Below, one piece after another: positions 21,609 to 53,975 of a stretch of DNA of 64,000 bases. Position 1 is the first letter of the stretch. Every line of letters starts with the position of its first letter. Location of the stretch: contig NZ_AQRC01000001.1 of NCBI RefSeq assembly GCF_000737065.1, forward strand, positions 1 through 64,000. The letters run 5' to 3'. Source of the stretch: Thioclava atlantica. GTDB taxonomy: Bacteria > Pseudomonadota > Alphaproteobacteria > Rhodobacterales > Rhodobacteraceae. The notes beneath the pieces are model-generated. The model was not told the DNA's origin. It saw nothing but the letters and a program-made list of their open reading frames with translations, and did no database searches. The position numbers and the translations under genes are program-made.

Positions 21609-22271
21609 ATGTCAATTAGCCCGAAGATGGCCCTTCTCGAAGAATATGCCCTTGTCGCGCGAGCCTTGTCGGCCCCCGCACGCCTTATGCTTCTTGAGCA
21701 GCTCGCCCAGAGCGAACGCAGGGTAGAGGCGCTTGCGGAAAAAACCGGGCTCACTGTTGCGAACTGTTCGCAGCATTTGCAGCAATTGCGACGCGTTGGC
21801 CTTGTCACCAGTCGGCGCGACGGAAAGGCGATAATCTACAGGCTGACCGACGCGAGGACGCTGACGTTGTTGGGAATTTTGGGCGATGTGGCCGAAAGGA
21901 ACCTCGCACAGGTTGGGGAGATCCTGCGCGGGCTATCGAACGGCGAAGACGCGCCGGAACCGATCAACCGCGACGAGCTTGCCGCTCGACTGACTGAAGG
22001 GTCGGTGACCGTCCTCGACGTGCGCCCCGCCGACGAGTTCGCCGATGCCCATATCCCGGGCGCACTCAACATGGCCGTGACGGAGCTGGACAAGTTCCTG
22101 ACGGATCTCGACCGGAACACCGAGATTGTGGCCTATTGTCGTGGTCCATACTGTATCTACGCCCACCAAGCCGTGGCGTTCTTGCGCAAGAATGGCTTCA
22201 ACGCCCGGCGTCTTGACGGCGGTCTGCCTGAATGGCGCGAAGATGGTCGAGCCATTCGGTCGACCTCCTGA
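21609..22271 (+). CDS. ArsR-family regulator fused to rhodanese domain
   Basis: The 220-aa protein joins a winged HTH of the ArsR family (residues about 10-90; LTVANCSQHLQQLRRVGLVT is the recognition region, with a Cys in it) to a rhodanese domain (about 118-215; VTVLDVRPADEFADAHIPGA and the loop YCRGPYCIYAHQAV). The rhodanese Cys could sense persulfide and change DNA binding. It is divergent from the sulfur operon and starts 20 bp from the dyad, so it is likely autoregulated. Confidence 0.92.
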   Translation: MSISPKMALLEEYALVARALSAPARLMLLEQLAQSERRVEALAEKTGLTVANCSQHLQQLRRVGLVTSRRDGKAIIYRLTDARTLTLLGILGDVAERNLAQVGEILRGLSNGEDAPEPINRDELAARLTEGSVTVLDVRPADEFADAHIPGALNMAVTELDKFLTDLDRNTEIVAYCRGPYCIYAHQAVAFLRKNGFNARRLDGGLPEWREDGRAIRSTS

Positions 22272-22795: not shown

Positions 22796-23371
22796 TTATG
22801 GTCGAAGACGGCGTCTATCCCGATGGCGGTGGAGGTCTGCGGGCGTGTCGATGTCAATAGCTTCTTCGGCCGAGAGTGGGATCAACGACTTGCGTGGCAG
22901 TGCGCGTATTAGCTCTCGGGCGCCTTGGTCTCGGCCCCGATCGGGCGCACGTTTCAAGTCGTCCGCAGTCAGAAGTGCTGGGGGCATCGGGATACCGTTG
23001 GATGCGCAGGCGTAGCTGCCCCCGTCGCGATTTACCAAGGCGCGGAGAGTGTCTGTTGACACAAATGGCATGTCTCCGAGCACAAACAGTGCGCGTTCTG
23101 CCTGAAGCCACGTTGCGCAGTCACGTGCCGTGTGCCAAGTATGGGATAACGGCAGGTTCGGTCCAACCTTGTGCACCTGGAACGACGGGGGAAGGGCGGT
23201 GGCCACTCTCTCGGAAGAGACAATCGCAATTAACGTGTCGCATCCCGACGCCTCGAGTGCGCGTGCGGCTGTCAGCACCAGAGGCGCGCCGTTCCAATTC
23301 GCAAGAAGCTTGTCTTGAGCGCCGAAACGACGCGATGTGCCGGCGGAGAGGAGAATGCCGAGCGTGCGCAT
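22796..23371 (-). CDS. MocA-like molybdenum cofactor cytidylyltransferase
   Basis: The 191-aa protein has the nucleotidyltransferase start LLSAGTSRRFGAQDKLL (LAAGxSxRxG...K), the GDMP-type motif LGDMPFVSTDTLRAL and a terminal IDIDTP segment. MocA/MobA-like enzymes make the cytosine dinucleotide form of molybdopterin used by xanthine/CO-dehydrogenase-type hydroxylases. A three-subunit hydroxylase and XdhC are encoded downstream, which supports this role. It lies leftward together with the NIPSNAP gene, separated by 16 bp. Confidence 0.82.
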   Translation of the reverse strand: MRTLGILLSAGTSRRFGAQDKLLANWNGAPLVLTAARALEASGCDTLIAIVSSERVATALPPSFQVHKVGPNLPLSHTWHTARDCATWLQAERALFVLGDMPFVSTDTLRALVNRDGGSYACASNGIPMPPALLTADDLKRAPDRGRDQGARELIRALPRKSLIPLSAEEAIDIDTPADLHRHRDRRRLRP

Positions 23372-23387
23372 GGCGACCGCGACCGGC

Positions 23388-23699
23388 TCAGTCGAGCGGC
23401 GAGAAGGCCGCAGGCTGAAGGAAGATGCTTTCCTGATGCACGAGATAGGACAGGATCTTGGGCACGAAGTTTTGCCATTCCAGGTCCGCGCCCAGCTTTG
23501 CCCGCTGCGCGCTGCGGTGGCCGTAATCTTCGTAGGCCCAGATGAAAGTGACGGCGTTCAGCACGCCGCTGTCACTGACCCAGCATCCGGCAAGCTTCGC
23601 ATACCGGGTGATAATGTGTAGGCCCTCTGCCTCATAGAGCTTTAGGAACTCGGGCGCTTTCCCGGGCGTGATGCGGTAGGTTCTTTGTTCGTAGATCAT
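23388..23699 (-). CDS. NIPSNAP-family protein
   Basis: The product (about 103 aa) is a ferredoxin-like dimeric alpha-beta barrel of the NIPSNAP type: MIYEQRTYRITPGKAPEFLK at the start, then FIWAYEDYGHRSAQRAKL. The family's function in bacteria is largely unknown; members often sit in catabolic clusters. The second ATG (23,699) is chosen because GGAG lies just upstream of it. It is divergent from the TetR gene. Confidence 0.82.
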   Translation of the reverse strand: MIYEQRTYRITPGKAPEFLKLYEAEGLHIITRYAKLAGCWVSDSGVLNAVTFIWAYEDYGHRSAQRAKLGADLEWQNFVPKILSYLVHQESIFLQPAAFSPLD

Positions 23700-23795
23700 A
23701 TTGGGCTCCGGCATGAATGGCGGTAAATCGCGTGCGCTGGCGCATCGTGACGAACCGAAGCTACGATCAAAGCTTGGGTTTTCGCAATCTATAAG

Positions 23796-23809
23796 TCGTC
23801 AACTGAGGA
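23796..23809. promoter_or_regulatory. Candidate TetR operator, site 1
   Basis: TCGTCAACTGAGGA in the gap between the NIPSNAP gene and tetR. It differs at two positions from the reverse complement of the perfect palindrome at 24,714-24,727, which precedes the ABC operon. This is the expected layout for an autoregulated repressor that also controls the downstream operon. Confidence 0.55.
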
Positions 23810-23877
23810 AAAGTCGCTTTGCCGTTGCTGGGAATGGCGTAATGTATGGGGCTAAAGTCGTTGCGTCCGGTGCCAGA

Positions 23878-24603
23878 ATGAACAAAAAGGGACGTCCGGG
23901 GGAAAACGTGCGGGCCAAGCTGAAAATGTCTGAAGGTTCGTCCAAAACGAACGCTACAGGAGGCAAGCCCGGTTCGCCGCAGGGGGCTGTGCGGATGCCG
24001 TTCAATGAGCGCCGCGCTCAGATTTTGGACGTTGCCTCCGAATTCTTTGCCGAGAATGGGCTTGCGGGGCAGACGCGTCAGTTGGCGGAGAAATGCGGCA
24101 TCTCCCAACGCCTCCTTTATCGCTTTTTTCCGACCAAAGAAGACCTGCTCAAAGAGGTCTATGACCAAGAGATTCTTGGCGCCTTCAAGGCTGTCTGGTT
24201 CGTTGAGCTGCAGGATCGAACGCGGCCTGTGTCCGAACGCCTCGACGCATTTTACCGCGACTATCTTCGCTCGACGTTAACCCGCAAGTGGTTGCGTCTG
24301 TTCCTGTACGCTTCGCTTGCCGAGGCGAAAATGGCGCCTGACTACATCTCCGCGATCGTCATGCAGCTGCTGGAGACCGTGATGCGCGAGGTGGCGCATG
24401 AGCGGGGCGTGGATTTGCCAGAAGACCCCGCATTGCTCCGTGAGATGGCATGGACGTTGCATGGCGCGATCTCTCACTATGCGATTCGGCGTCATATCTA
24501 TCAGAGCAGCCTGTCGCTCTCCGAGGATCAGGTGGTTTCGATGCATGTTCGCGTGTTCCTCGCGGGCTTCGAGGACATGGTCAAGATGTGCGTAGGCCGC
24601 TAA
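23878..24603 (+). CDS. TetR-family transcriptional regulator
   Basis: The protein (241 aa from ATG 23,878) has the TetR HTH: RRAQILDVASEFFAENGLAG, then TRQLAEKCGISQRLLYRFFP, with KEDLLKEVYD linking to the ligand-binding domain. The stretch before the HTH is a poorly conserved basic tail, so the true start may be internal at about 23,926 (MSEGSS) or 23,995 (MPFNE). It is followed by the catabolic operon and preceded by a candidate operator. Ligand unknown; probably the imported compound. Confidence 0.88.
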   Translation: MNKKGRPGENVRAKLKMSEGSSKTNATGGKPGSPQGAVRMPFNERRAQILDVASEFFAENGLAGQTRQLAEKCGISQRLLYRFFPTKEDLLKEVYDQEILGAFKAVWFVELQDRTRPVSERLDAFYRDYLRSTLTRKWLRLFLYASLAEAKMAPDYISAIVMQLLETVMREVAHERGVDLPEDPALLREMAWTLHGAISHYAIRRHIYQSSLSLSEDQVVSMHVRVFLAGFEDMVKMCVGR

Positions 24604-24676
24604 ACGCTGAAATCAGCTACATTTTCTTCCGAATTCATCTGTGGTGATCGCCGCAGATGCTGAAAATATTGGCGCC

Positions 24677-24689
24677 TTCCGCTGCGGAA
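24677..24689. repeat. 13-bp palindrome upstream of ABC operon
   Basis: TTCCGC-T-GCGGAA, in the gap between tetR and the substrate-binding gene. It could be a second protein-binding site or a small hairpin after tetR. Confidence 0.35.
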
Positions 24690-24713
24690 AGGAAAGCGTT
24701 AACTTTTCACTGG

Positions 24714-24727
24714 TCGTCAGTTGACGA
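24714..24727. promoter_or_regulatory. Candidate TetR operator, site 2
   Basis: TCGTCA-GT-TGACGA is a perfect palindrome apart from the central two bases. It lies 113 bp before the substrate-binding gene start and repeats the site upstream of tetR (12 of 14 bases). Confidence 0.6.
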
Positions 24728-24839
24728 ATAAATATATCGCCAATAGCGTAAATCCACATAACAAGATCAACAGGGACGGCTTGCCGCAGATTGGGCTTTG
24801 TTCGGGCTTGGGCTGAGGCGGCCACGCAAAAGGAATCGA

Positions 24840-26174
24840 ATGATGCTCAAGGATAAGACGCGCCGTCTCGGGCGCCGGGATTTCCTCCGCTACTCGGCGG
24901 CGGGCGCGGGGGCGTTGATGGCGCCGGGTCTGGTTCGTCCGGCAAAAGCCGCAACTGCCGCCCTGACGATGCATACGTGGTCGGCCGCGGTTGACACCGT
25001 GCAGAGCCACCTCAGCGCCTTCACCAAGGAAACCGGGATTCCCGTCAATTACGGCAATTCGCCCTGGGCCCAATATCGCGAGGGTATGGTCGCGAAATTC
25101 GTCGGTGACGCGCCGCTCGACGTGATGTGGGTTTCGGATGCCTGGCTACCCGAATGGGCCGAGGCCGGCTGGATCGCCCCGGTCGATGAGTTCGACAACC
25201 TGATGCAATACAACGTCGAGGCCGAGGACTTTTGCACCGACTCCATGACCTATGGCGGTCGTCAATACGGCCTGACCTACTACACCGACTACATGGCCTT
25301 CTTCTATGACGAGGCGAAGCTCAAGGAAGCTGGCTTCGACGCGCCGCCGTCTAGCTGGGATGAGCTGGTCGAGCAGTCCCTCGTTATGAAGGAGAAGGGC
25401 ATCGCAGACTATCCGATGATGCTGGCGATGGCGCAGGAAAGCTGGCTGATCGAGTTCATCTCAACCCTCGTCTATTCGCATGGCGGGCGTCTTGTCGATG
25501 ACAATGGCGTCGCCGTGATGCAGGATCCGAAAGAAGGGGCTGTCGAGGCGCTGAGCTGGGTCGTCGATGCGGTCAACAAACACGAGATTGTCTCACCCGC
25601 CTGTGTCGAGACCGGCGAGCTGGCTGGCCTGAAAGCCTTCGCGGCGGGCAACCATGCCTTCGCGATGGTAGCGAAATATCGCCTTAGAATGCTCAACGAC
25701 CCCGAGCAGTCGCAAATCGCCGGTCACGTGAAGCAGGCGATGATGCCGCAAGGCGCCAATGGTTCTCACGCGACGGTCGGTTGGATGCGTTTCCACGGCA
25801 TGTCGGCGCAGGCCGCGCAAGACAAGGCGCGCGCTGAAAATGCGGCGAAGCTGATCGAATGGTTCGGTGGCAAGGCGGACGGTGCTTACACGTTCCAGAA
25901 GCTCCTGTTCCTCGATATCGGCGCTGGTTTTGGCGTAAAGCCTCTGTTCGAGGATCCTGAGATCCGCGCGGCCTACGACTCCTATGGCGATGTCGACATG
26001 ATCCAGGCTCAGCAGGCGCTTGCCCGCAAAAAGGACACGGTTACCCCGTGGTTTGGCGAATGGAACGACACCAATGGTTCGGCCTGGCAATCGGCGATCC
26101 TCGGTAATGTGGATGCCGCCGGAGCGGTCGCGAAATCTGCCGATCTCTGGAACCAGCTGAAGGACAGCTACTGA
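24840..26174 (+). CDS. ABC transporter substrate-binding protein (carbohydrate type, CUT1)
   Basis: The 444-aa protein begins with a twin-arginine signal (RRDFLRYSAAGAGALMAPGL), an unusual export route for such binding proteins, and follows with the SBP_bac_1 fold: LTMHTWSAAVDTVQSHLSAF, DVMWVSDAWLPEWAEAGWIA, TYYTDYMAFFYDEAKLKEAG. CUT1 proteins bind sugars, polyols or related compounds in the periplasm. ATG 24,840 is used since it directly precedes the Tat motif. It heads an operon that runs to 36,616. Confidence 0.92.
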   Translation: MMLKDKTRRLGRRDFLRYSAAGAGALMAPGLVRPAKAATAALTMHTWSAAVDTVQSHLSAFTKETGIPVNYGNSPWAQYREGMVAKFVGDAPLDVMWVSDAWLPEWAEAGWIAPVDEFDNLMQYNVEAEDFCTDSMTYGGRQYGLTYYTDYMAFFYDEAKLKEAGFDAPPSSWDELVEQSLVMKEKGIADYPMMLAMAQESWLIEFISTLVYSHGGRLVDDNGVAVMQDPKEGAVEALSWVVDAVNKHEIVSPACVETGELAGLKAFAAGNHAFAMVAKYRLRMLNDPEQSQIAGHVKQAMMPQGANGSHATVGWMRFHGMSAQAAQDKARAENAAKLIEWFGGKADGAYTFQKLLFLDIGAGFGVKPLFEDPEIRAAYDSYGDVDMIQAQQALARKKDTVTPWFGEWNDTNGSAWQSAILGNVDAAGAVAKSADLWNQLKDSY

Positions 26175-26181
26175 CCAGACG

Positions 26182-26208
26182 CGGCGGGCCTTTTTGAAAG
26201 GCCCGCCG
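26182..26208 (+). terminator. Strong intra-operon stem-loop after the binding-protein gene
   Basis: A perfect 12-bp stem (26,182-26,193 with 26,197-26,208; arms CGGCGGGCCTTT and AAAGGCCCGCCG) with a 3-nt loop, 8 bp after the binding-protein stop. There is no T-run after it, so it is more likely an mRNA-stabilising or partial-termination element that raises binding protein over permease, as in other CUT1 operons. Confidence 0.75.
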
Positions 26209-26239
26209 ACGATCGGGCTGGGCAACGGGAGAGCATGAC

Positions 26240-27151
26240 GTGGCGAATGCAGTGATGCGGGCGACACGCCCGAGATGGCGGGTGGGATACGAGGAGCGCA
26301 GCGCGATGCTGTTTCTTGCTCCGGTTATGGCCGTGCTAGGCGCGGTCGCGGTCTTCCCGATCGCCTATTCGCTATATATCAGTTTCTTCAGCATGAAGCT
26401 GACGCGTCCGAACCGGACCCCCTTCGTAGGCCTAAAGAATTACACCGATCTTTTAGCCGACGAGGCTTTCTGGGGGGCGGTCTGGCGCACAGTGAGTTTC
26501 TCGCTCGTTTCGGTCACCGCGATTGCCCTTATCGCCCTGCTTGTCTCGCTACTACTTAACCAGGAATTTCGTGGTCGCCGTATCCTCTCCACGATCCTGC
26601 TGGTGCCGTGGGCGATCCCCTATGTCGCGAATGCGCTGATGTGGAAATGGATCTATGATTCCAGCTATGGCGCGCTGAACGGCCTGCTCTACCAGCTCGA
26701 TTTCATCGACAAGTACATGGTTTGGCTGGGGGATCAGGACAAGACGCTTTTCCTGATCGCGAATGCGTTCGTCTGGAAGGAAGTGCCGCTGGCGACGATC
26801 CTTCTGCTGGTCTCGCTCAAGTCGATTCCGTCCGATATCTATTCGGCGGCCCGCGTCGACGGCGCGACCGTCTGGCAGCGCTTCGTTCATGTCACCCTGC
26901 CCGCGATGAAGCCCGGTTTCTTGCTGGTGATGATCTACGAGACGATGATGGCGATCCGCCATTTCGATCTGTTCTTCATCCTAACCGAGGGCGGGCCCGG
27001 CAGCGCCTCGCACGTACTCTCGTGGCACATCTATGTCGAGACCTTCCGTAACCTTTCCTTCGGGAGCGGCGCTGCGATGTCCTACGTCCTCGCAATCGCG
27101 ACTTTCGCACTCTCCTACCTCTTCATTCGAACGCTGGGGCGCAGGATCTGA
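26240..27151 (+). CDS. ABC transporter permease, CUT1 MalF/UgpA type
   Basis: The 303-aa inner-membrane protein has six hydrophobic segments (first at about residues 24-44: LFLAPVMAVLGAVAVFPIAY) and the EAA loop YSAARVDGATVWQRFVHVTL at about 198-217. GTG start at 26,240, preceded by GGGAGA. It forms the channel together with the following permease, whose ATG begins one base after this stop. Confidence 0.92.
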   Translation: MANAVMRATRPRWRVGYEERSAMLFLAPVMAVLGAVAVFPIAYSLYISFFSMKLTRPNRTPFVGLKNYTDLLADEAFWGAVWRTVSFSLVSVTAIALIALLVSLLLNQEFRGRRILSTILLVPWAIPYVANALMWKWIYDSSYGALNGLLYQLDFIDKYMVWLGDQDKTLFLIANAFVWKEVPLATILLLVSLKSIPSDIYSAARVDGATVWQRFVHVTLPAMKPGFLLVMIYETMMAIRHFDLFFILTEGGPGSASHVLSWHIYVETFRNLSFGSGAAMSYVLAIATFALSYLFIRTLGRRI

Positions 27152-27152
27152 C

Positions 27153-28118
27153 ATGAGCGATATGCCTATCACCCCGCCTGTCGACAGGATCGACTACCGC
27201 CGCCGCCAGAAAATCGGGCGCATCGTCCAACGCCTGGTGATCTTGATCTCCGCGATCCTCCTTACGGCCTACGTGCTTGCCCCTGTGTCCTGGCTTGTCT
27301 CCTCGGCCTTCCAGACCGAGACGGAGATCGTCTCGATCCCTCCGCACTGGATTCCCGAACATCCCACCTTGCGCAATTTCGAGGCGATCTTCACTGCCGG
27401 AAACGACGAGCCCGTTACCTATGAGACGCGCTCGGGCACGGATCCGGCTGCAGGCGACTTCATCCCCTCCACCGCAGAGAACCTTCTGCCTTCGATGGCC
27501 AACAGTCTGATCGTCGCGACCTTGGTGGTGATCCTGAACCTGCTCGTCGGGGTGCCGGCTGCTTATGCTATCGCGAAGATACGGTTCTGGGGGCGCAACG
27601 CTTCAGTCTACTTTATCCTGATCACGCGGGTGATCCCCGATATCGCGCTGGTCGTGCCGTTCTTTCTGGTGATCCGGAAACTCGGCATGCTCGATACGCT
27701 TGGATCGCTGGTGATCACCTATCTTGCTATCACGGTGCCCTTCACGGTCTTCATCCTCATCCAGTATTTCGAGGGGCTCCCGGACGAGTTGGACAAGGCC
27801 GCGCGGGTCGATGGCTGTTCGCGGTTCCAGGCACTGATCAAGGTGTTCCTGCCGCTTTCGATGCCCTCGCTCGTCGCCGTGGTTCTCTTTACCTTCCTCA
27901 CCAGTTGGAACGAATTTCTGCTCGCGCTGATGTTCACGCAGACCTCCGCGTCGCAAACGCTGCCGATCCTGCTGGCCTCGTTCACCTCCGATTTCACGGT
28001 GAGCTTCTCCTTCCTCAACGCTGCGGGCGTGCTGGCGGTGGTCCCGCCGGTCATCGTGGCCATCGTCTTCGAACGCTACATCGTTTCCGGTCTAACCGCC
28101 GGGGCGGTCAAAGGTTAG
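27153..28118 (+). CDS. ABC transporter permease, CUT1 MalG/UgpE type
   Basis: The 321-aa protein has a cytoplasmic N-terminus, a first helix at about residues 32-52, a longer periplasmic loop (about 60-110), and five further helices with the EAA loop LDKAARVDGCSRFQALIKVF. It is the second channel subunit. The loop is extended compared with a typical ~275-aa MalG-type permease. Confidence 0.92.
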   Translation: MSDMPITPPVDRIDYRRRQKIGRIVQRLVILISAILLTAYVLAPVSWLVSSAFQTETEIVSIPPHWIPEHPTLRNFEAIFTAGNDEPVTYETRSGTDPAAGDFIPSTAENLLPSMANSLIVATLVVILNLLVGVPAAYAIAKIRFWGRNASVYFILITRVIPDIALVVPFFLVIRKLGMLDTLGSLVITYLAITVPFTVFILIQYFEGLPDELDKAARVDGCSRFQALIKVFLPLSMPSLVAVVLFTFLTSWNEFLLALMFTQTSASQTLPILLASFTSDFTVSFSFLNAAGVLAVVPPVIVAIVFERYIVSGLTAGAVKG

Positions 28119-28132
28119 AAAAGGACTAAGTC

Positions 28133-29242
28133 TTGGCCCGGATCCGTTTCACCAACGTCAACAAGAAATACGCCAACGGCTTCCATGCCGTGCGCGATCT
28201 CAACCTCGATATCGAGGATCGCGAATTCATCGTCTTGCTCGGTCCTTCGGGTTGCGGCAAATCCACAACCCTCAACATGATTGCAGGGCTTGAGGAGGTC
28301 TCGGATGGTGAGCTCATCTTCGACGAGCAGGTTGTGAACTATGTACCCCCGCACAAGCGCGACGTCGCGATGGTGTTCCAGAGCTATGCACTCTATCCGC
28401 ACAAGACCGTCTACGACAATATCGGCTTCGGACTGAAGATGCGGAACGCGTCGAAGGAAGTAATCGACGAGCGCGTTCGTGATGCTGCACAAAAACTCGA
28501 GATTTCCCACCTGCTCGACCGCCGTCCGTCGCAGCTTTCGGGCGGCCAGCGTCAGCGCGTGGCACTCGGACGCGCGATGGTCCGTGACCCGTCGGTCTTC
28601 CTGATGGATGAGCCGCTCTCGAATCTCGATGCGGCGCTGAGGATCTCCATGCGTGCGGAGATTAAGGAACTTCATCGCACGATGGAGACGACCTTCGTCT
28701 ATGTGACTCACGATCAGGCCGAGGCGCTCACGCTCGCGGATCGTATCGTGGTGATGAATGATGGGGTTGTGCAGCAGATCGGCACGCCTGACGACATTTA
28801 CGAACGCCCGTCGAACACGTTCGTGGCGTCGTTCCTCGGCAGCCCTCCGATCAACTACTTCGACGGGGCCCTCGAGGCCGGGCCGGATGGAGAGATGGCA
28901 TTCATCCGCGACGGGTTACGCCTTCTGCTGCCGGCGGATTACGCGGCACGCCTGAAAGAGAAGATGGGCCGCGTGGTGCGGCTGGGCATTCGGGCTGAGG
29001 ATGTCGTGGAAGGCACCGCCGAACCGGGGATCAATGCGCTTAGCGGCACCGTGACCTCGGTGCTTCCAGTTGGCTCTGATCAATATCTGGGAATGGATTT
29101 CGGGGGGGAGGAGCTGTTTTTCCGTGTCGGCAAGGATCTGCGCCATGCTTTCGGCGAGAAGATCACCCTCGCGGTAGACCTCAGCCGCCTGCATATCTTC
29201 GATCGCGAATCGGGGCAGTCCCTGATCTGGAACGCGGCGTGA
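28133..29242 (+). CDS. ABC transporter ATP-binding protein, MalK/UgpC type
   Basis: The 369-aa ATPase shows Walker A GPSGCGKST, Q-loop VFQSYALYPHKTV, signature LSGGQRQRV, Walker B VFLMDEPLSNLD and H-loop VTHDQAEALTLADRI, then a C-terminal TOBE/regulatory domain. It powers the CUT1 importer. The start is TTG (28,133) after AAGGA; no ATG exists before the first strand. Four bases separate its stop from the next gene, linking transport directly to the oxidoreductase genes. Confidence 0.93.
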   Translation: MARIRFTNVNKKYANGFHAVRDLNLDIEDREFIVLLGPSGCGKSTTLNMIAGLEEVSDGELIFDEQVVNYVPPHKRDVAMVFQSYALYPHKTVYDNIGFGLKMRNASKEVIDERVRDAAQKLEISHLLDRRPSQLSGGQRQRVALGRAMVRDPSVFLMDEPLSNLDAALRISMRAEIKELHRTMETTFVYVTHDQAEALTLADRIVVMNDGVVQQIGTPDDIYERPSNTFVASFLGSPPINYFDGALEAGPDGEMAFIRDGLRLLLPADYAARLKEKMGRVVRLGIRAEDVVEGTAEPGINALSGTVTSVLPVGSDQYLGMDFGGEELFFRVGKDLRHAFGEKITLAVDLSRLHIFDRESGQSLIWNAA

Positions 29243-29246
29243 GACT

Positions 29247-30116
29247 ATGAAACCGGCTCCCTTCACTTACCACCGGCCTGCGAGCCTCGCTGAGGCGTTG
29301 ACGCTCTTGCTCAGGCACGGGCCGGCAGCGAAGCCGCTCGCCGGAGGGCAAAGCCTTGGGCCGATGCTGAACATGCGTCTAGCACGCCCGGCTCATCTTG
29401 TCGATCTCAACGACTTGATCGAGCTGGATAGCCTGCGAGTGACGGAGGACACTCTGGAGGTTGGCGCGCTGACGCGCCATCACCGCCTTGCCAATGCGCC
29501 GGAAGTGCAGCGTAGCCTGCCGCTTCTGGGTGCTGCTGCCGCCTCAATTGGGCATTACACGATCCGACAGCGCGGAACGATCGGCGGAAGCCTCGCCCAT
29601 GCGGACCCGGCCGCCCAATTGCCACTGATTGCGGTCACGCTTGGCGCAACGCTGGTGATTTCGGGACCGGACGGCTCCCGCGAGATTGCCGCAGCTGACT
29701 TCCTGCAATCGATCATGACGGTCGACCTGCGCGATGGCGAACTCATTACCGCGGTGCGTTTTCCGCTTCCCGTTGGCGACCTGTGGGCCTACGAGGCCTT
29801 CTCGCGTCGTCACGGCGATTTCGCTCTGGTCAGCGTCGCGCTCAGTTTTTCTCGCGATGCGGAAGGGAAAATTGTTGCACTTCGGCTCGGGCTTGGGGGT
29901 GTCGATACCGTCCCGTTGCGCTTGCCCGAGATCGAGGCGCGCGGCCAGGGCAGGCTTGCCGACGAGAATACCATTCGCGACCTCGCAATCGCGACCGCCA
30001 CGGCGATTGCGCCCGAGGACAGCGAGCAGGTGCCCGCCGTCTATCGACGAGAGCTTGCCGAAACGCTCGTCGTTCGCGCGTTCAAGGCCGCTGTGAACCG
30101 GGAGGAGGGTGCATGA
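29247..30116 (+). CDS. Molybdo-hydroxylase FAD-binding subunit (CoxM/CutM-like)
   Basis: The 289-aa protein has the two FAD-binding motifs of the xanthine dehydrogenase family: AGGQSLGPMLNMRLARPAHL (about residues 32-51) and TIRQRGTIGGSLAHADPAAQ (about 106-125), and a C-terminal CO_deh_flav_C domain. It passes electrons from the Fe-S subunit to the final acceptor. Its stop overlaps the next start by 4 bp. Confidence 0.92.
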   Translation: MKPAPFTYHRPASLAEALTLLLRHGPAAKPLAGGQSLGPMLNMRLARPAHLVDLNDLIELDSLRVTEDTLEVGALTRHHRLANAPEVQRSLPLLGAAAASIGHYTIRQRGTIGGSLAHADPAAQLPLIAVTLGATLVISGPDGSREIAAADFLQSIMTVDLRDGELITAVRFPLPVGDLWAYEAFSRRHGDFALVSVALSFSRDAEGKIVALRLGLGGVDTVPLRLPEIEARGQGRLADENTIRDLAIATATAIAPEDSEQVPAVYRRELAETLVVRAFKAAVNREEGA

Positions 30117-30610
30117 GCGCTCCGACACAAGACCCCCTGACACTTTCACTGAGCGTGAACGGTGAAACCCACGAAGTTCGGGTGCCCGCGCGCAAACTGC
30201 TGTCGGATGTGCTGCGCGATGACATTGGTCTGACAGGCACCCATGTCGGCTGCGAGCATGGCGTCTGCGGTGCTTGCACGATTCTGATCGACGGGCGTCC
30301 GGCCCGTGCCTGTTTGACCTTCGCGGTCCAGATGGAGGGGCACGAAGTTACGACGATCGAGGCCGTGGGGCGGCCCGATACCCTCTCGGCGCTTCAGCAG
30401 GCGCTGCACGAGGAACATGGGCTGCAATGTGGTTTCTGCACGCCTGGTATCGTGGTGACCTTCGAGCATTACCTTCGCGAGAACACGAACCCGACCGCTG
30501 AAGACGTGCGCGACGTGTTGTCTGGCAACCTTTGCCGCTGCACGGGTTATCAGAATATCGTGGTGGCAGTGCTTAAGGCTGCAGCGCGTATGCGTGGGGA
30601 GCTGGCATGA
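30113..30610 (+). CDS. Molybdo-hydroxylase [2Fe-2S] subunit (CoxS/CutS-like)
   Basis: The 165-aa protein binds two [2Fe-2S] clusters: the plant-type motif CEHGVCGACTILIDG with a following Cys in RACLTF, and the helical-domain motif CGFCTPG with CRCTGYQNI. ATG 30,113 overlaps the FAD subunit stop and its own stop overlaps the large subunit start, so the three subunits are made together. Confidence 0.94.
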   Translation: MSAPTQDPLTLSLSVNGETHEVRVPARKLLSDVLRDDIGLTGTHVGCEHGVCGACTILIDGRPARACLTFAVQMEGHEVTTIEAVGRPDTLSALQQALHEEHGLQCGFCTPGIVVTFEHYLRENTNPTAEDVRDVLSGNLCRCTGYQNIVVAVLKAAARMRGELA

Positions 30611-32985
30611 GTGACGGCTTCACCGAGATCGGCCGCGCCCTGCCACGCAAGGAAGATCGGCGCCTTGTCACGGGCCGCGGGCGTTACCTCGACGATCTTG
30701 CCTCTCCCGGCGCGCTGCACGTGAGCTTCGTGCGCTCGCCCCACGCCCACGCGCGCATTCTCGAAATCGACAGCGCCGAAGCTGCTGAAATGCCGGGCGT
30801 CGTCGGCGTTTTCACCGGGCGTGATCTCGATCATATGACGACGCGCTTGCGTCTCGCACCGCCGATCGAGGGGCTGCAGCCAACCGAACTTACGACGCTG
30901 CCGATCAACAAAGTCCGTTTCCACGGAGACCCGGTTGCCTGCGTGGTCGCGACAGATCGCTACCTCGCGGAGGATGCGGCGGAGTGCGTCACCGTCGAAT
31001 ATGAACAGCTCCGAGCGGTGACCTCGATCGCGGAGGCCTTCGCCCCGGACGCGGCGCTGGTCGATGACAGCCTGTCTAGCAATCTGGTATCGCATCAGAC
31101 ACTGAGCGTCGGCGATCCTGCGGCGCGCCGGGCCGAAGCACATCGCGTGGTCGAGGCCCGTTTTGCACTCCATCGCCATACACATGTCCCGCTGGAGACA
31201 CGCGGTTGCCTCGCCGATTGGGATGACGGGCGCGCGCATCTGAACATGCATATCGGCAATCAGGTCCCGCACCCTTTGCGCAGTCAGCTCGCCTCGCGAC
31301 TGGGGCTGTCGGAAAGTCAGGTCACGGTGATGAGCCCCGATGTGGGCGGCGCGTTCGGTCAGAAGATCGCGCTTTACCGCGAGGAACTCACGGTCGCGGC
31401 CCTCTCACGCCACCTTTGCCGGCCGGTTCGTTGGCGCGAGGATCGGATGGAAAACCTGATGTCCGCCGCCCATGCGCGGGAATACGAGTGCCGCACCCGC
31501 ACCTCGGTCAGCGAAACCGGACGTATCCTCGGTCTCGAGCTTGAGATTGATGAGGATTTCGGCGGCTACTGCTTCTACCCGGCCAATTACATGGCACGGG
31601 TCATCGCGCTTATCATGACCGGACCTTACCGGATTCAGGATTATGCCTATGAGGTCCGCGTTGCACTGACGAACAAGTGCGGTGCTGGTCCGATGCGCGC
31701 GCCGATGGCGATCACGAGCTGGGTGATGGAGGGCACGATCGACGCCATTGCCCGCGACCTCGAACTTGACCCCGTAGAGGTGCGTCGTGTCAATGCACTC
31801 GGACCCGAGGACTTGCCTTATAAAATGCCCACGGGCGAAATCCTCGAGGATGTCACACCTCGGGAAACGCTTGAGATGGCCGTGGCTGCAATCGATGTCG
31901 CGGCTTTCCGCGAGCGGCAAACGCAGGCGCGCTCGGAAGGCCGGTATCTAGGGCTCGGGCTGTGCACGGTGATAGAAAGCACGACCTACGGGTCGGAATT
32001 CTACAAGTCCGCAGGCATTCCCGGATCGGGGCATGAATCAGCCTGGGTGCGGATCGAGCCGAGCGGGGTGGTCAACGCCTCTGTCGGGCTGATGGGCACG
32101 GGGCAGGGCTACGAGAGCCCGCTTTCGCAGGCCGTTGCCGAGGGGCTTGGCGTGCGCTCGGAAGATGTCACGGTTCATATGGGCAATACTGATATTGCGC
32201 CCTATGGCATGGGCAGTCGCGGTGGACGCGGCGCGACCGCAGGAGGTGGAACGCTCTATCTCTGTGCGCTCAAGGCGCGTGAGCGGGTGCTCGCGATCGC
32301 GGCTTCGATGCTCGATCTCAACGATGCTGGCGGGCTGCGCATGCGCGCAGGCCAGATCGAACGCATGATTGGTGACGACTGGCAGAAGGTGGGCCTTGCA
32401 CTGACGGATGTCGCGCGGCGCGCCTATCTCGACCCGCTGGTGCTGCCCGAGGGGATCCCGCCCGGGCTCGACTTCTCGCAGAGCTACGACCCGCCTGCGA
32501 TGACCTATTCCAATTCGACCCATGCCTGCGAGGTTGAGGTCGATTTGCAGACTGGCGCAATTTCGATCGACCGCTACCTCGTCGCGGAGGATTCGGGCAC
32601 CATTCTCAACCCGATCGTCGTGAGTGGCCAACAGCAAGGCGCAATTGCGATGGGGCTGAGCGGCGCGCTGCTCGAACAGGTTGTCTATGACAGCTCCGGG
32701 CAGAACCTCTCTGCGACACTCGCCGATTACCTTGTGGCCTCCCCGAACGAACTGCCAGAGTTCGAAATCCTGCATCACCATACGCCGAACCGGCGTACTC
32801 CGGCGGGGATCAAGGGTATGGCCGAAGGAGGCGTGATGGGCGCGATCGGTGTGATCGCCAATGCGGTAAGCGATGCGCTCGCGCCGCGCGGCGTGACCAT
32901 CAAGCGTCTGCCGCTGACCCCCCAATCCATTCGCGCGCTCCTGCGGGAGGCTGCGCCCAGTTCAATGAAAAGGACCCAGTCGTGA
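30607..32985 (+). CDS. Molybdo-hydroxylase large subunit (CoxL/XdhB-like, Moco-binding)
   Basis: The 792-aa protein has the aldehyde-oxidase a/b hammerhead (residues about 15-140) and Moco domains with GGAFGQK (about 246), GSRGGRGATAGGG (about 536) and KGMAEGGVMGAIG near the C-terminus, whose Glu is at the catalytic base position. The active-site loop reads NKCGAGPMRAPM, neither the AYxCSFR of form I CO dehydrogenase nor AYRGAGR of form II. The substrate is therefore probably not CO but an N-heterocycle, aldehyde or similar compound delivered by the adjacent importer. Confidence 0.9.
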   Translation: MSDGFTEIGRALPRKEDRRLVTGRGRYLDDLASPGALHVSFVRSPHAHARILEIDSAEAAEMPGVVGVFTGRDLDHMTTRLRLAPPIEGLQPTELTTLPINKVRFHGDPVACVVATDRYLAEDAAECVTVEYEQLRAVTSIAEAFAPDAALVDDSLSSNLVSHQTLSVGDPAARRAEAHRVVEARFALHRHTHVPLETRGCLADWDDGRAHLNMHIGNQVPHPLRSQLASRLGLSESQVTVMSPDVGGAFGQKIALYREELTVAALSRHLCRPVRWREDRMENLMSAAHAREYECRTRTSVSETGRILGLELEIDEDFGGYCFYPANYMARVIALIMTGPYRIQDYAYEVRVALTNKCGAGPMRAPMAITSWVMEGTIDAIARDLELDPVEVRRVNALGPEDLPYKMPTGEILEDVTPRETLEMAVAAIDVAAFRERQTQARSEGRYLGLGLCTVIESTTYGSEFYKSAGIPGSGHESAWVRIEPSGVVNASVGLMGTGQGYESPLSQAVAEGLGVRSEDVTVHMGNTDIAPYGMGSRGGRGATAGGGTLYLCALKARERVLAIAASMLDLNDAGGLRMRAGQIERMIGDDWQKVGLALTDVARRAYLDPLVLPEGIPPGLDFSQSYDPPAMTYSNSTHACEVEVDLQTGAISIDRYLVAEDSGTILNPIVVSGQQQGAIAMGLSGALLEQVVYDSSGQNLSATLADYLVASPNELPEFEILHHHTPNRRTPAGIKGMAEGGVMGAIGVIANAVSDALAPRGVTIKRLPLTPQSIRALLREAAPSSMKRTQS

Positions 32986-33875
32986 CAGAAAAGAAACTCA
33001 GCGTCGGCTTCATCGGACTCGGTATCATGGGGCAGCACATGGCGGGACATATTCTTGCCGCGGGGCATCCACTCAATATCTACAACCGCACCCGCGCCAA
33101 GGGCGACGCCCTTGTCGCGAGGGGCGCGAAGTGGTGCGACGGCCCCGGCGCGGTGGCTGAGGCCAGCGACATAACGATCACCATCGTGGGTTACCCCGCC
33201 GATGTCGAGCAGATCTACCTTTCAGAGGGTGGGCTCATTGCCAAGGCGCGCCCTGGCTCTGTGCTCATCGACATGACCACCTCCAGCCCGGCCCTGGCCG
33301 CGAAGATTGCGCAGGTGGCGCTTGCGCGCGGTGTCTCCGCGCTCGACGCCCCGGTGTCCGGCGGCGATATTGGCGCGAAAGCGGGAAAGCTAGCGATCAT
33401 GCTGGGTGGCGATCCGGAGAGTTTCGAGCGGGTTCTGCCCGTGCTGGAGTTGATGGGCGGGAATATCGCGCTGATGGGCAAGGCAGGCGCTGGTCAGCAC
33501 ACGAAGATGGCCAACCAGATTGCCATTGCTTCGACCATGCTCGCGGTCGCCGAAAGCATAAGCTACGCGGATGCCGCCGGTCTGGAGCCGATGCAGGTTC
33601 TTAAAGTCATAGGAACCGGGGCCGCGTCGAGTTTCCTGCTCAACGGGCTTGGGCCGAAGATGGTGGACGAGGATTTCGCACCCGGCTTCTTCATCCATCA
33701 TTTCGTCAAAGACATGACAATCGCACTGAACGAAGCCGAAAGACTGGGCCTCGATCTGCCGGGCCTCGCGCTGGCGCGCAGCCTCTATCTCAAGCTGGTG
33801 GATGAGGGCTTCGGCGAAGAGGGTACGCAGGCGCTCTACCGCGCCTATAACGCGATCCATGCGGAGGCCAGGTGA
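32982..33875 (+). CDS. 3-hydroxyisobutyrate dehydrogenase-family NAD(P) oxidoreductase
   Basis: The 297-aa protein has the Rossmann loop GFIGLGIMGQHMAGH, the substrate motif DAPVSGGDIGAKAGKLAIML and the catalytic Lys in GAGQHTKMANQI. The family oxidises 3-hydroxy acids or reduces tartronate semialdehyde, or acts on imines. GTG start at 32,982 overlaps the previous stop. It presumably handles a product of the molybdo-hydroxylase pathway. Confidence 0.9.
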   Translation: MTEKKLSVGFIGLGIMGQHMAGHILAAGHPLNIYNRTRAKGDALVARGAKWCDGPGAVAEASDITITIVGYPADVEQIYLSEGGLIAKARPGSVLIDMTTSSPALAAKIAQVALARGVSALDAPVSGGDIGAKAGKLAIMLGGDPESFERVLPVLELMGGNIALMGKAGAGQHTKMANQIAIASTMLAVAESISYADAAGLEPMQVLKVIGTGAASSFLLNGLGPKMVDEDFAPGFFIHHFVKDMTIALNEAERLGLDLPGLALARSLYLKLVDEGFGEEGTQALYRAYNAIHAEAR

Positions 33876-34465
33876 TGCGGTTCGAAGGCGATCACCTGAT
33901 CCCGGCCGATCCCGAAACGGTCTGGCGCGGGCTCAACGACCCCGAGGTTCTGCGCCGCGCGATCCCGGGCTGCGAGGCGATGGAGCAGACCGGTGAGGCC
34001 GAATATACTGCCACGGTCGTGGCGCGGGTCGGCCCAGTCTCGGCCAGCTTTCGCGGCAAAGTCGAACTGAGCCATCAGGTGCCGCCCGTGTCCTATCGGA
34101 TCAGCGGACGCGGGCAGGGCGGGCCTGCGGGATTTGCCAAAGGGGGTGCCGAAATCAAGCTTGCGCCTGAAGGCGAGGGCACACGATTGTCCTATGTCGC
34201 CGATGTCGAGGTGGGTGGCAAACTGGCCGCGGTCGGCGGTCGATTGATCCAAGGTGTGGCCCGCAAGAATGCCGAGGATTTCTTCAATTCCTTCTCGCGG
34301 GTCGTGACCGGCGAGGTGGAGGAGGCGACGCCGCAAAGCAAAGCCGCCGCCCCGACGGGTGCGGTGGCAATCGCGGCGGCGAGGCATCTTCCACTGATCG
34401 ACCGCGTGGCCTGGCTTCTGGTCGGTCTTGGCCTCGGTCTTGGGATCAGCTGGCTGTTTGGTTGA
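33872..34465 (+). CDS. CoxG-family protein (SRPBCC) with C-terminal membrane helix
   Basis: The 197-aa protein starts MMRFEGDHLIPADPETVWRG, the CoxG/SRPBCC signature (START-like fold), and has a C-terminal hydrophobic anchor, RVAWLLVGLGLGLGISWLFG. CoxG is reported to recruit form I CO dehydrogenase to the membrane, so this protein may tether the hydroxylase to the respiratory chain. GTG 33,872 or ATG 33,875 can start it; the gene overlaps the previous one. Confidence 0.9.
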   Translation: MMRFEGDHLIPADPETVWRGLNDPEVLRRAIPGCEAMEQTGEAEYTATVVARVGPVSASFRGKVELSHQVPPVSYRISGRGQGGPAGFAKGGAEIKLAPEGEGTRLSYVADVEVGGKLAAVGGRLIQGVARKNAEDFFNSFSRVVTGEVEEATPQSKAAAPTGAVAIAAARHLPLIDRVAWLLVGLGLGLGISWLFG

Positions 34466-34476
34466 AAGGACGCGCG

Positions 34477-35649
34477 ATGAATATCCTTCCGGCGATCAGG
34501 GCGATGGAAGATCAGTTGGTCGAGTGGCGACACGCGCTGCATCGCCGCCCCGAACTGGCCTTTGAGGAACACGGGACCGCCGCCTTCATCGCACAGCAAC
34601 TGCGTGACGTTGGACTTGAGGTCCATGAGGGGCTCGCCGGCACCGGGGTGATCGGAGTCCTGCGGAATGGCGAGGGGCCGCGCGTCGGTCTGCGCGCCGA
34701 TATCGACGCGTTGCCGATCTCCGAACTGACCGGAGCCGACTATGCCTCCGAAATTACCGGCAAGATGCATGCCTGTGGTCATGACGGTCATACCACGATG
34801 CTGCTCGGGGCGGCGCAGGCGATGGCGGCGGATCCGCCGGGGCCGGGCACGGTGGTATTCATCTTCCAACCCGCCGAGGAAAACGAAGGCGGCGCGCGGG
34901 TGATGATCGAGGATGGGCTGCTCGAACAGTTTCCGCTCGACAGCACTTATGCGCTGCATAACTGGCCGGGGCTGGAGGCAGGCAAGATCGCGATGCGTGC
35001 AGGACCCGTGATGGCGGCGTTCGACACGTTCGAACTGAAGGTGACGGGCAAGGGATCGCATGGCGCCATGCCGCATGAGGGGATCGACCCGATCACGCTG
35101 ACCGCGCAGTTGCAGATGGCCTGGCAGACGATTGTCAGCCGCGCGGTGGATCCAACCGATGCGACGGTGATTTCGGTGACGCAGATCCACGCGGGCCACA
35201 CGCTCAATGTGATTCCCGACGAAGTGACACTGCGCGGCACCGTGCGCACCCTACGCCCCGCGACGCGCGATTTCGTTCAGGCCGAGATGACGCACCGCGC
35301 CGAAATGATCGCTGAGGCCTTTCACGCCAAGGCCGAATTGATCTATCAGCGTCGCTACCCAGCCACGATCAACGATCCCGAAGCGGCCGAAACGGCACGC
35401 CGTGCAGCCGAAGCCATCGTAGGCCGCGATGCGGTGCAGACCGACTACACGCCCAGCATGGCGAGCGAGGATTTCGCTTTCCTGCTGGAGAAGGTGCCCG
35501 GCGCTTATGGTTGGATTGGCAATGGATCGGCGGAAGGCGGGCGGAACCTGCACAGCCCACATTACGATTTCAACGATGCGATCCTGCCGTTGGGCGTGCA
35601 ATTCTTCGTCGAGGTAGCGCACCGCGCTCTGGCCGGGTCGAACGATTAA
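34477..35649 (+). CDS. M20-family amidohydrolase (hippurate hydrolase/HipO-like)
   Basis: The 390-aa enzyme contains HRRPELAFEE, the metal-binding HACGHDGHTTML, HIGH-confidence family features PAEENEGGARVMI with the catalytic Glu, and MASEDFAFLLEKVPGAYGWI at the C-terminus. M20D enzymes cleave N-acyl amino acids or carbamoyl-type amides. ATG 34,477 is preferred over TTG 34,462 because AAAGGA sits 8 bp before it. In this operon it may open an amide formed after ring hydroxylation, or deacylate the imported compound. Confidence 0.9.
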   Translation: MNILPAIRAMEDQLVEWRHALHRRPELAFEEHGTAAFIAQQLRDVGLEVHEGLAGTGVIGVLRNGEGPRVGLRADIDALPISELTGADYASEITGKMHACGHDGHTTMLLGAAQAMAADPPGPGTVVFIFQPAEENEGGARVMIEDGLLEQFPLDSTYALHNWPGLEAGKIAMRAGPVMAAFDTFELKVTGKGSHGAMPHEGIDPITLTAQLQMAWQTIVSRAVDPTDATVISVTQIHAGHTLNVIPDEVTLRGTVRTLRPATRDFVQAEMTHRAEMIAEAFHAKAELIYQRRYPATINDPEAAETARRAAEAIVGRDAVQTDYTPSMASEDFAFLLEKVPGAYGWIGNGSAEGGRNLHSPHYDFNDAILPLGVQFFVEVAHRALAGSND

Positions 35650-35659
35650 GGAGCCAGAC

Positions 35660-36616
35660 GTGACCCATCCCGCCGCGCAAGACCCCTGGTTCGAGCTGGC
35701 GCGATCCGAAGTGCCCGGCGCGATTGCGGTGATCTCTGGCATTGAAGGCCCAGCCTATCGCAATGTCGGCACGGCGATGGCTATCTTGCCGGACGGTCGG
35801 CGCTTTGGGGCGCTCAGCTCAGGCTGTATCGAAGAAGATGTGGTCGATCATGCACTCGCGGCGCTGGCCGACGGGCAGGTGCGCAAGCTGCGCTATGGAG
35901 CCGGCTCGCCCTTTTTCGATCTGAAACTGCCCTGCGGCGGCGCGCTTGAGATTATGGTGATCCCGACGCCGGACCGCGCTTTGTTGATCGAGCTTGAGGT
36001 CCGGCGCGCGCGCCGCGAGGAGACGACTTTGGGGGTGAGCGCAGCGGGTGCCTTGCGTTTCATGCAACAGGACGAGGTTCCTGACGAGATGGCTGAGCTG
36101 CATATCGCCTTTCCTCCTGAGCCTCGCTTCGTGATCTTTGGGGCTGGTGCCGAGGCGGTCTTCTTCGCTGATCTGGTGCGGGCTACCGGCGCGCCGCATC
36201 TTCTTCTCACGCCCGAAGACGCCACTTTCGCCAATGCTGAAGGTGCCGGTTGCACGGTGCGCAAGTTAGACCGAAGCGCGATCCCTGCAGACGTTGTCAT
36301 CGACGCGCGCTCTGCCGTGATCCTGCTTTTCCACGATCACGATTGGGAGCTGGAAATTCTCGAGGTGGCGCTCGCAACCCCTGCGTTCTATATCGGAGCG
36401 CAGGGAAGTATGCTCACGCAAAACCGGCGGCGGCAAGGCTTGCAGGCCCGTGGTGTCGAGGAGGCGATGTGCGCGCGGGTTCGCGGACCGATCGGGGTGA
36501 TCCAATCCGCGCGTGATCCACGGCTGCTGGCCGTTTCAGTGCTGGCAGAGGTGCTTGCAGAAGTGCAGCGCGGCGTGTCGGCGCCTTCGCGACTGGCGCA
36601 GCGATCTGGCCGCTGA
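35660..36616 (+). CDS. XdhC/CoxI-family Moco insertion protein
   Basis: The 318-aa protein has the XdhC N-terminal domain (GTAMAILPDGRRFGALSSGC then IEEDV) and a C-terminal Rossmann domain with FVIFGAGAEAVFFADL and YIGAQGSMLTQNRRR. XdhC proteins bind and sulfurate the molybdenum cofactor and insert it into xanthine-dehydrogenase-type enzymes. GTG start at 35,660. It is the last gene of the operon and complements the MocA-like gene at 22,796. Confidence 0.9.
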   Translation: MTHPAAQDPWFELARSEVPGAIAVISGIEGPAYRNVGTAMAILPDGRRFGALSSGCIEEDVVDHALAALADGQVRKLRYGAGSPFFDLKLPCGGALEIMVIPTPDRALLIELEVRRARREETTLGVSAAGALRFMQQDEVPDEMAELHIAFPPEPRFVIFGAGAEAVFFADLVRATGAPHLLLTPEDATFANAEGAGCTVRKLDRSAIPADVVIDARSAVILLFHDHDWELEILEVALATPAFYIGAQGSMLTQNRRRQGLQARGVEEAMCARVRGPIGVIQSARDPRLLAVSVLAEVLAEVQRGVSAPSRLAQRSGR

Positions 36617-40195: not shown

Positions 40196-40367
40196 GCGCC
40201 TGGATGTTCCTCCTGTCGCGGTGGCGGTGCACAACCGGCATCCAAGAGACTGGGGCGCTTGGCCCTTCCCCCATATTGTAGAAGGCGAGAAGGCCCGTCT
40301 CTTGGATCAAACCGGCGTGATCTGGCACGGCATCTGGACAAAAACGCGAATATGTCTTCTTCACCCC

Positions 40368-40398
40368 TTGAGCTTCCAGTGACTGGAAGCCCTATCTG
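40368..40398 (+). promoter_or_regulatory. MerR/CueR-type copper-responsive promoter of copA
   Basis: -35 TTGAGC (40,368-40,373) and -10 TATCTG (40,393-40,398) are separated by 19 bp, the over-long spacer typical of MerR-family promoters. Between them lies the perfect dyad GCTTCCAG-TGA-CTGGAAGC (40,372-40,390), close to known CueR operators. Transcription starts about 50 bp before copA. The regulator gene is not in the window. Confidence 0.88.
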
Positions 40399-40456
40399 GC
40401 TATCAGAACGCGGTTGGAAGACCGATTCCGAGCGCACCGATACAGGAGAAACCGTC

Positions 40457-52065: not shown

Positions 52066-52077
52066 AGGAGAGAGAAA

Positions 52078-53964: not shown

Positions 53965-53975
53965 GGGGCGAGAAG

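Follow-up and report, generated by a model that had tools for sequence, protein, structure and literature searches.

What would a cell take up through a sugar-type importer in order to hand it to a molybdenum hydroxylase and an amidohydrolase? This question is raised by positions 22796–36616 of the DNA analysed here, the first 64,000 nucleotides of contig NZ_AQRC01000001.1 of Thioclava atlantica (hereafter the window), where genes for a CUT1-type ATP-binding cassette (ABC) importer precede those for a CoxMSL-type molybdenum hydroxylase, a beta-hydroxyacid dehydrogenase resembling 3-hydroxyisobutyrate dehydrogenase (HIBADH-like), a CoxG-like protein and an M20 aminoacylase. All genes named in an earlier note on this DNA are present; a NIPSNAP-domain protein and a TetR-family regulator, which it left unnamed, also belong to the conserved unit. 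The operon joins four groups with mostly open roles, namely CoxL-like enzymes other than carbon monoxide (CO) dehydrogenase, CoxG beyond CO oxidation, NIPSNAP proteins and orphan CUT1 importers. The reading developed below, in which not quite even trust is placed, is that of a catabolic operon, self-contained and under TetR control, for one predicted small, polar, hydroxyl-rich nitrogen compound, degraded via a short proposed route.

Conservation and control of the operon

The gene set is a real unit, syntenic across alpha- and betaproteobacteria. Homologous loci were sought with a CoxL profile built from four genomes, which yielded 39 loci on genome contigs, and two further loci lie on plasmids of Burkholderia cenocepacia and Ciceribacter thiooxidans, where the region is without annotation in the records; some of the 41 are close relatives, not independent. 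The binding-protein gene is present in 34 of them (by their record titles 19 are alphaproteobacterial and 14 betaproteobacterial, and L066 is given simply as Proteobacteria) and absent from L058, L060, L062, L064, L067, L069 and L071, several of these absences being explained by short contigs (L062, L064 and L071, 3.9–5.0 kb); nothing of the operon is found behind coxL in L058. Both permeases, the ATPase and coxL occur in all 34 binding-protein loci (the coxL of L073 being cut by a contig end), coxM and coxS in 33 each, the HIBADH-like gene in 32 (not L066, L073), NIPSNAP and TetR in 32 each (not L055, L066), CoxG in 30 at the detection threshold used, and M20 nearby in 26.

MocA-like and XdhC-type maturation genes, listed as part of the pathway in the earlier note, do lie in the window, but homologues at the same threshold are found in only 4/41 and 7/41 loci, respectively, so that these two are not core; the MocA-like protein scores 51.5 bits against TIGR03310 (cut-off 186.45). 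In Aliiruegeria the operon is directly followed (L044:15325-20698) by another, distant CoxL/S/M set accompanied by MocA- and XdhC-like genes, and the copies counted at L044 belong to this second set. Four betaproteobacterial loci carry a further open reading frame (ORF) that is MobA-like by eye.

The claim of one import-and-oxidise operon has held up, importer and hydroxylase standing together in all 34 binding-protein loci. A hydroxylase located separately in relatives, which had been named as one half of what would undo it, does not occur among these loci; two diverged loci, L066 and L069, differ, and the comparison is one-sided because CoxL served to find the loci. Neither 385 genomes of the class nor the plasmids yielded a close binding protein unaccompanied by CoxL, the 39 loci themselves being CoxL-found. 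That two unrelated operons adjoin by chance, for which only the diverged L066 and L069 would speak, is barely credible in the face of 34 syntenic loci sharing a near-exclusive operator. Three Thioclava relatives carry the operon with CoxL identities of 91–94%. The operon is rare: among 341 genomes of the order, four (counting that of the window) have a CoxL of at least 74% identity, and of 398 genomes in a phylum sample one, that of the window itself, has an orthologue at E 1e-180. The CoxL of Ciceribacter thiooxidans (L080:15001-17369) is split over two frames, by a frameshift or a sequencing error.

A palindrome, TCGTCA-NN-TGACGA, is common to intergenic control regions in both alpha- and betaproteobacteria. 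When one mismatch is allowed, the 770,787 bases of the 41 loci contain 61 sites, 60 of them in two control regions, one 5′ of the binding protein and the other between TetR and NIPSNAP, while the 61st (L079) lies ∼140 bp before tetR; the 300 bp before the binding protein hold a site in 33 of 34 loci, L066 having none. Exact sites in 24 whole genomes (a subset of the 39 behind the loci, ∼108 Mb by listed sizes) fall at the operon in 31 of 32 cases, three genomes having no exact site, and the reversed control pattern gives no exact site in the same genomes. The sole exact match off the operon lies in the Roseibium genome of L070 (G1077:C75:65206-65219). The 3.9-Mb genome of the window holds a single exact site, that before its importer genes; allowing one mismatch there are five sites against one for the reversed control, and the three away from the operon have, by eye, nothing obviously related as neighbours. 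In the window alone, with two mismatches allowed, two matches stand against 3.21 expected, which is not significant, and the evidence for an operator is therefore that of conservation and position. The operon is apparently self-regulated, and the TetR protein would probably be the one that binds this palindrome. Given the near-exclusive operator and the short gene set, one ligand screen or TetR-inducer screen should reveal the substrate, which would also give the reaction of the whole CoxL subfamily.

The importer and the molybdenum hydroxylase

The importer has the complete composition of a CUT1 system, with an SBP_bac_1 protein, two permeases and a MalK/UgpC ATPase, and the modelled binding protein (mean predicted local distance difference test (pLDDT) 73.9, residues 1–92 below 50) has a fold like that of maltose-, trehalose- and sulfoquinovosyl-binding proteins, bearing out the sugar-type importer of the earlier note. 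A twin-arginine translocation (Tat) motif, RRxF[LM], is present in 33 of 34 homologues, and the family is strongly conserved (mean column identity 76%, 28 rows). Tyr148, Asp150 and Trp315 are invariant in the 28 rows and align with a Tyr, Asp and Trp of the trehalose/maltose-binding protein 1eu8, which we take to bind trehalose. Fold and invariant residues are compatible with a hydroxyl-rich ligand and say no more than that; the polyhydroxylated N-heterocycle suggested earlier is a possible one. Binding-protein fold and UgpC-type ATPase are shared with the Ugp, trehalose/maltose and sulfoquinovosyl-glycerol CUT1 importers, from which the present importer differs in being embedded in an oxidative operon and in its highly conserved binding protein.

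Judged by its domains and motifs, CoxL is a molybdenum hydroxylase: the three subunits have the FAD, 2Fe-2S and molybdenum-cofactor domains (Pfam) of the xanthine oxidase superfamily, and the KGMxEGG motif, whose Glu is catalytic in molybdenum hydroxylases, is found in 36 of the 39 CoxL proteins extracted from the 41 loci. The sequence PMRAP in the active-site loop is found in all 39. The closest solved relative in the PDB is quinoline 2-oxidoreductase (Qor, 1t3q, 493.6 bits), a member of the same superfamily as other N-heterocycle-degrading molybdenum hydroxylases, although its loop reads GAYRGVG where CoxL has GPMRAPM, and importer, HIBADH-like, NIPSNAP and M20 partners are features of the present operon. 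CoxL reaches the cut-off of no NCBIfam enzyme model that it matches, xanthine dehydrogenase included (XdhA equivalog, 341.1 bits against 780).

CoxMSL, CoxG and XdhC-/MocA-type maturation genes are likewise found in aerobic CO dehydrogenase cox operons (form I and the unresolved form II), and the second-best PDB match of CoxL is a CO dehydrogenase large chain (8uem). PMC13240472 gives [AS]YRCS[FL]R as the form I and AYRGAGR as the form II motif; each is found in 0/39 of the CoxL proteins here, the CO dehydrogenase models, with cut-offs of 950 and 991.15 bits, give scores of 534.6 and 482.9, and the genes are coupled to a CUT1 importer that is conserved alongside. It is accordingly very improbable that these are CO dehydrogenase genes beside which unrelated transport genes happen to stand, and CO oxidation was rejected because CoxL lacks both motifs. 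CoxG passes electrons to quinone in CO dehydrogenase according to the same paper, and by analogy its counterpart here may transfer electrons to quinone as well.

The two diverged CoxL loci L066 and L069 share genes upstream (L066:2401-4430 and L069:4943-5941) that resemble, by eye, E1 subunits of acetoin-type 2-oxoacid dehydrogenases.

Amide cleavage, serine and a proposed route

The M20 protein is an aminoacylase-type enzyme that passes TIGR01891, with HACGHD in 26 of 26 operon members, and remains below the ectoine deacetylase model DoeB2 (NF038260, 356.5 against 550 bits). The M20 genes of the alpha- and betaproteobacterial operons are of different origins: a single clade of both was rejected among 14 other M20 proteins (log-likelihood difference 141, approximately unbiased test p 3.5e-51; 41 of 44 rows, the long rows p_L118, x_Vario_L087 and p_L130 being left out and the long B_L079 kept), in a comparison set up after the first tree had been inspected. 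In one Burkholderiales locus (L067:1776-3179), an amidase-signature gene (PF01425) lies directly before coxM, S and L, and no M20 gene was detected on that contig. The M20 protein here is 57.8% identical to an M20 protein beside genes of the L-2-aminothiazoline-4-carboxylate (ATC) hydrolase type in Azospirillum, operons that differ in having a branched-chain-amino-acid-type importer, an FAD oxidoreductase and, in the stretch examined, no molybdenum hydroxylase.

L-serine ammonia-lyase (SdaA) lies inside 10 of the 14 betaproteobacterial binding-protein loci, and it does so at two positions: between CoxG and M20 in L051, L052, L054, L065, L076 and L077, and between NIPSNAP and the binding protein in L057, L059, L061 and L072. 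The L051 protein is well above the cut-off of TIGR00720 (702.6 against 345.1 bits), and the other nine were identified by tblastn with 54.9–95.4% identity to it; as the second group is 55–57% identical to the L051 protein, two acquisitions of SdaA are suggested by these sequences. That an amide hydrolase and serine deamination were each recruited repeatedly is most readily accounted for by an amide intermediate that yields serine or glycine. The SdaA genes of ten betaproteobacterial operons, the separate M20 origins and the near-exclusive operator point to a short, self-contained route with serine or glycine as its end product, and less to that of a large glycosylated aromatic.

The remaining core enzymes bear on what precedes amide cleavage. 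The NIPSNAP protein (model pLDDT 90.7) matches 5ixu of Burkholderia xenovorans with 65% identity, and beyond other NIPSNAP proteins its fold neighbours include LsrG, YgiN, SnoaB, ActVA-Orf6 and others, the four named being presumably isomerases and cofactor-free oxygenases (partly from record titles). We know of no catalytic role for any bacterial NIPSNAP protein, and none appeared among the literature matches listed; a conserved member in a defined pathway offers a testable case for an enzymatic role of the family. The HIBADH-like proteins belong to the beta-hydroxyacid dehydrogenase superfamily, whose family motifs GxGxMG, DxPVSGG and GQxTKxxNQ are found in 34, 34 and 30 of the 34 extracted, respectively, while the motif NRT presumably indicates NADP(H). 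The nearest solved relatives are 3w6u, recorded as ‘6-phosphogluconate dehydrogenase, NAD-binding protein’ and which we take to be an L-serine dehydrogenase, and the tartronate semialdehyde reductases 1vpd and 1yb4, and the score against 3-hydroxyisobutyrate dehydrogenase (TIGR01692) falls short (177 against 291.6 bits). The best relatives interconvert 2-substituted 3-oxo- and 3-hydroxypropanoates. Relatives of the HIBADH-like protein off the operon on plasmids (Bacillus, Paenibacillus, Cytobacillus, Latilactobacillus and Collinsella; 5 of 245 records) were also considered and set aside, their neighbours being uninformative.

A route assigning a role to every core gene can be proposed by inference from these assignments. 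The importer would take up the compound, and CoxMSL would add a water-derived oxygen at an sp2 carbon beside nitrogen (or at an aldehyde), passing electrons via CoxG to the quinone pool. NIPSNAP, with its cofactor-free oxygenase/isomerase fold, may then open or rearrange the hydroxylated product, after which the HIBADH-like enzyme would reduce an intermediate of the 2-(acylamino)-3-oxopropanoate type to an N-acyl-serine. Cleavage by the M20 amidase, or by the amidase-signature enzyme, would release L-serine, to be converted by the ammonia-lyase to pyruvate; the amide cleavage product may be L-serine or glycine. The NIPSNAP and HIBADH-like steps are the weakest of the route.

Hydroxylation, cofactor-free ring cleavage and an amidase form the same working logic in the quinaldine pathway of Arthrobacter Rue61a, which reportedly proceeds by a molybdenum hydroxylase, a cofactor-free dioxygenase and an N-acetylanthranilate amidase in this order. 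Both the amidase and the cofactor-independent dioxygenase appear in titles in the reference list of PMC3534580. The operon here differs in that a dioxygenase family of that kind is not among its Pfam matches, and in having another amidase family and another importer. A more specific version, doubtful as yet, is a complete undescribed route from a hydroxyl-rich N-heterocyclic natural product to N-acyl-L-serine, with a PMRAP-type CoxL, NIPSNAP ring opening, a serine-forming dehydrogenase and CoxG delivering electrons to quinone; PMRAP would then mark a third active-site type of CoxL-like molybdenum hydroxylase, and, among bacterial NIPSNAP proteins, the one here would be the first known to us with a catalytic role. 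Among the literature matches listed for the cluster and its parts (titles and abstract starts, often top matches only), none describes the cluster.

Besides the missing background rate for SdaA and the late design of the clade comparison, several points weigh against the reading as a whole. No M20 gene lies nearby in 8 of the 34 binding-protein loci; contig ends truncate L055 and L073, and L053 lies on a 14-kb contig with a transposase at the M20 place, but L043, L050, L066, L072 and L074 simply lack it (M20 genes lie elsewhere in the genomes of L043, L050, L053, L072 and L074). SdaA occurs in 0 of 19 alphaproteobacterial binding-protein loci in the flanks examined, the window's genome having one, 0.4 Mb from the operon, and serine could alternatively derive from glycine. 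L069, with a CoxL of 62% identity, has no importer gene within 8.4 kb upstream, and L066 has importer and CoxL but lacks CoxM, CoxS, HIBADH, NIPSNAP and M20. Pairwise identities correlate with those of CoxL for the binding protein (Spearman 0.91) and ATPase (0.90), but also for HIBADH (0.84), M20 (0.84) and NIPSNAP (0.76), so that core and recruited genes are not separated; this correlation is a weak measure because M20, of more than one origin, gives 0.84 too. Finally, the FAD and Fe-S subunits match an aldehyde dehydrogenase family best, below its cut-offs.

This last point belongs to the main rival, an unlikely aldehyde route for a sugar or amino-polyol, in which the molybdenum enzyme would be a glycer- or glycolaldehyde-type oxidoreductase, the HIBADH-like enzyme would act on a C3 compound such as tartronate semialdehyde, and an N-acyl group would be removed from an amino-polyol by M20. 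The scores against the alpha, beta and gamma subunits of molybdenum glyceraldehyde dehydrogenase are 488.4, 234.9 and 200.4 bits, the FAD and Fe-S subunits being best against beta and gamma; the top NCBIfam match of the dehydrogenase is tartronate semialdehyde reductase (TIGR01505, 238.7 bits), and the maltose/trehalose/sulfoquinovosyl-type fold of the binding protein would suit such a ligand. All of these scores are nevertheless under the curated cut-offs (790, 350, 290 and 340.75 bits, respectively), CoxL is nearest in the PDB to quinoline 2-oxidoreductase, and its PMRAP loop is unlike AYRGAGR.

Import of a polyol ring conjugated to serine or glycine, such as a mycosporine-like amino acid or another N-acyl-serine, with M20 releasing the amino acid first and the molybdenum and HIBADH-like enzymes acting on the other half, would fit SdaA in the betaproteobacterial operons and a polyol-type importer fold, and the hosts, by an impression from organism names only, often live with phototrophs. 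It is quite improbable: the one further exact operator site in 24 genomes seems to leave few extra co-regulated enzymes to finish the ring, and a literature search on bacterial mycosporine degradation gave no such cluster among the matches listed.

Two observations concern the M20 position itself. An IS21-type transposase follows CoxG, where M20 is expected, in an Actibacterium metagenome-assembled genome (L053:12060-13469). For Ramlibacter and Burkholderiales operons without M20, the M20 relatives elsewhere in those genomes were considered and rejected, as their neighbours match the operon only by ABC ATPases.

Gene layout and neighbouring features

Eleven plus-strand genes, from the binding protein to XdhC, form a directon in which neighbouring genes are no more than 65 bp apart, preceded 5′ by TetR on the plus strand and by NIPSNAP and the MocA-like gene on the minus strand (Table 1). 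From gene ends and junction sequences, 4-bp overlaps join coxM/coxS, coxS/coxL, coxL/HIBADH and HIBADH/CoxG; the binding protein is separated from the first permease by 65 bp, and other junctions measure 1–14 bp. The start codon of the TetR gene is uncertain, its frame being open from 23701.

Table 1. Genes and operator-like sites of the import-and-oxidise operon, in window coordinates
Feature	Position	Strand	Evidence
MocA-like molybdopterin cytidylyltransferase-type protein (cofactor maturation), not core	22796..23371	-	PF12804 E 1.5e-21
NIPSNAP-domain protein (dimeric alpha/beta barrel fold), core	23388..23714	-	PF07978 E 4e-24
Operator-like copy between NIPSNAP and TetR, TCGTCAACTGAGGA, 1 mismatch	23796..23809		palindrome match
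TetR-family regulator	23989..24603	+	PF00440 E 1e-12
Operator-like site 5′ of importer genes, TCGTCAGTTGACGA, exact	24714..24727		palindrome match
Tat-type CUT1 solute-binding protein (SBP_bac_1)	24840..26174	+	PF01547 E 3.7e-28
ABC permease 1 (BPD_transp_1)	26240..27151	+	PF00528
ABC permease 2 (BPD_transp_1)	27153..28118	+	PF00528; start from junction sequence
UgpC/MalK-type ATPase	28133..29242	+	NF008653 455.1 bits, above cut-off of 432
FAD subunit (CoxM-like)	29247..30116	+	PF00941 E 6.9e-47
2x[2Fe-2S] subunit (CoxS-like)	30113..30610	+	PF01799, PF00111; start from junction sequence
Molybdenum-cofactor subunit (CoxL-like), active-site loop GPMRAPM	30607..32985	+	PF02738, PF20256, PF01315
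Beta-hydroxyacid dehydrogenase (HIBADH-like)	32982..33875	+	PF03446, PF14833
CoxG-like protein, hydrophobic C-terminal stretch	33872..34465	+	PF06240 E 1.8e-33
M20 aminoacylase/amidohydrolase	34477..35649	+	PF01546; TIGR01891 353.1 bits, above cut-off of 153.75
XdhC-family maturation factor, not core	35660..36616	+	PF13478, PF02625

The junction from the binding-protein gene to that of the first permease contains a perfect hairpin (26182-26208; 12-bp stem, 3-base loop); hairpins of this kind often raise the yield of the binding protein. Elsewhere in the window, an ArsR-type regulator fused to a rhodanese domain is found at 21609-22271 and an ORF resembling a copper-translocating P-type ATPase (by eye) at 40259-42952. 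From translations only, and by eye, an NnrS-like protein at 46803-47999 and ORFs resembling a nitrous oxide reductase (nos) cluster at 49873-57518 were also noted.

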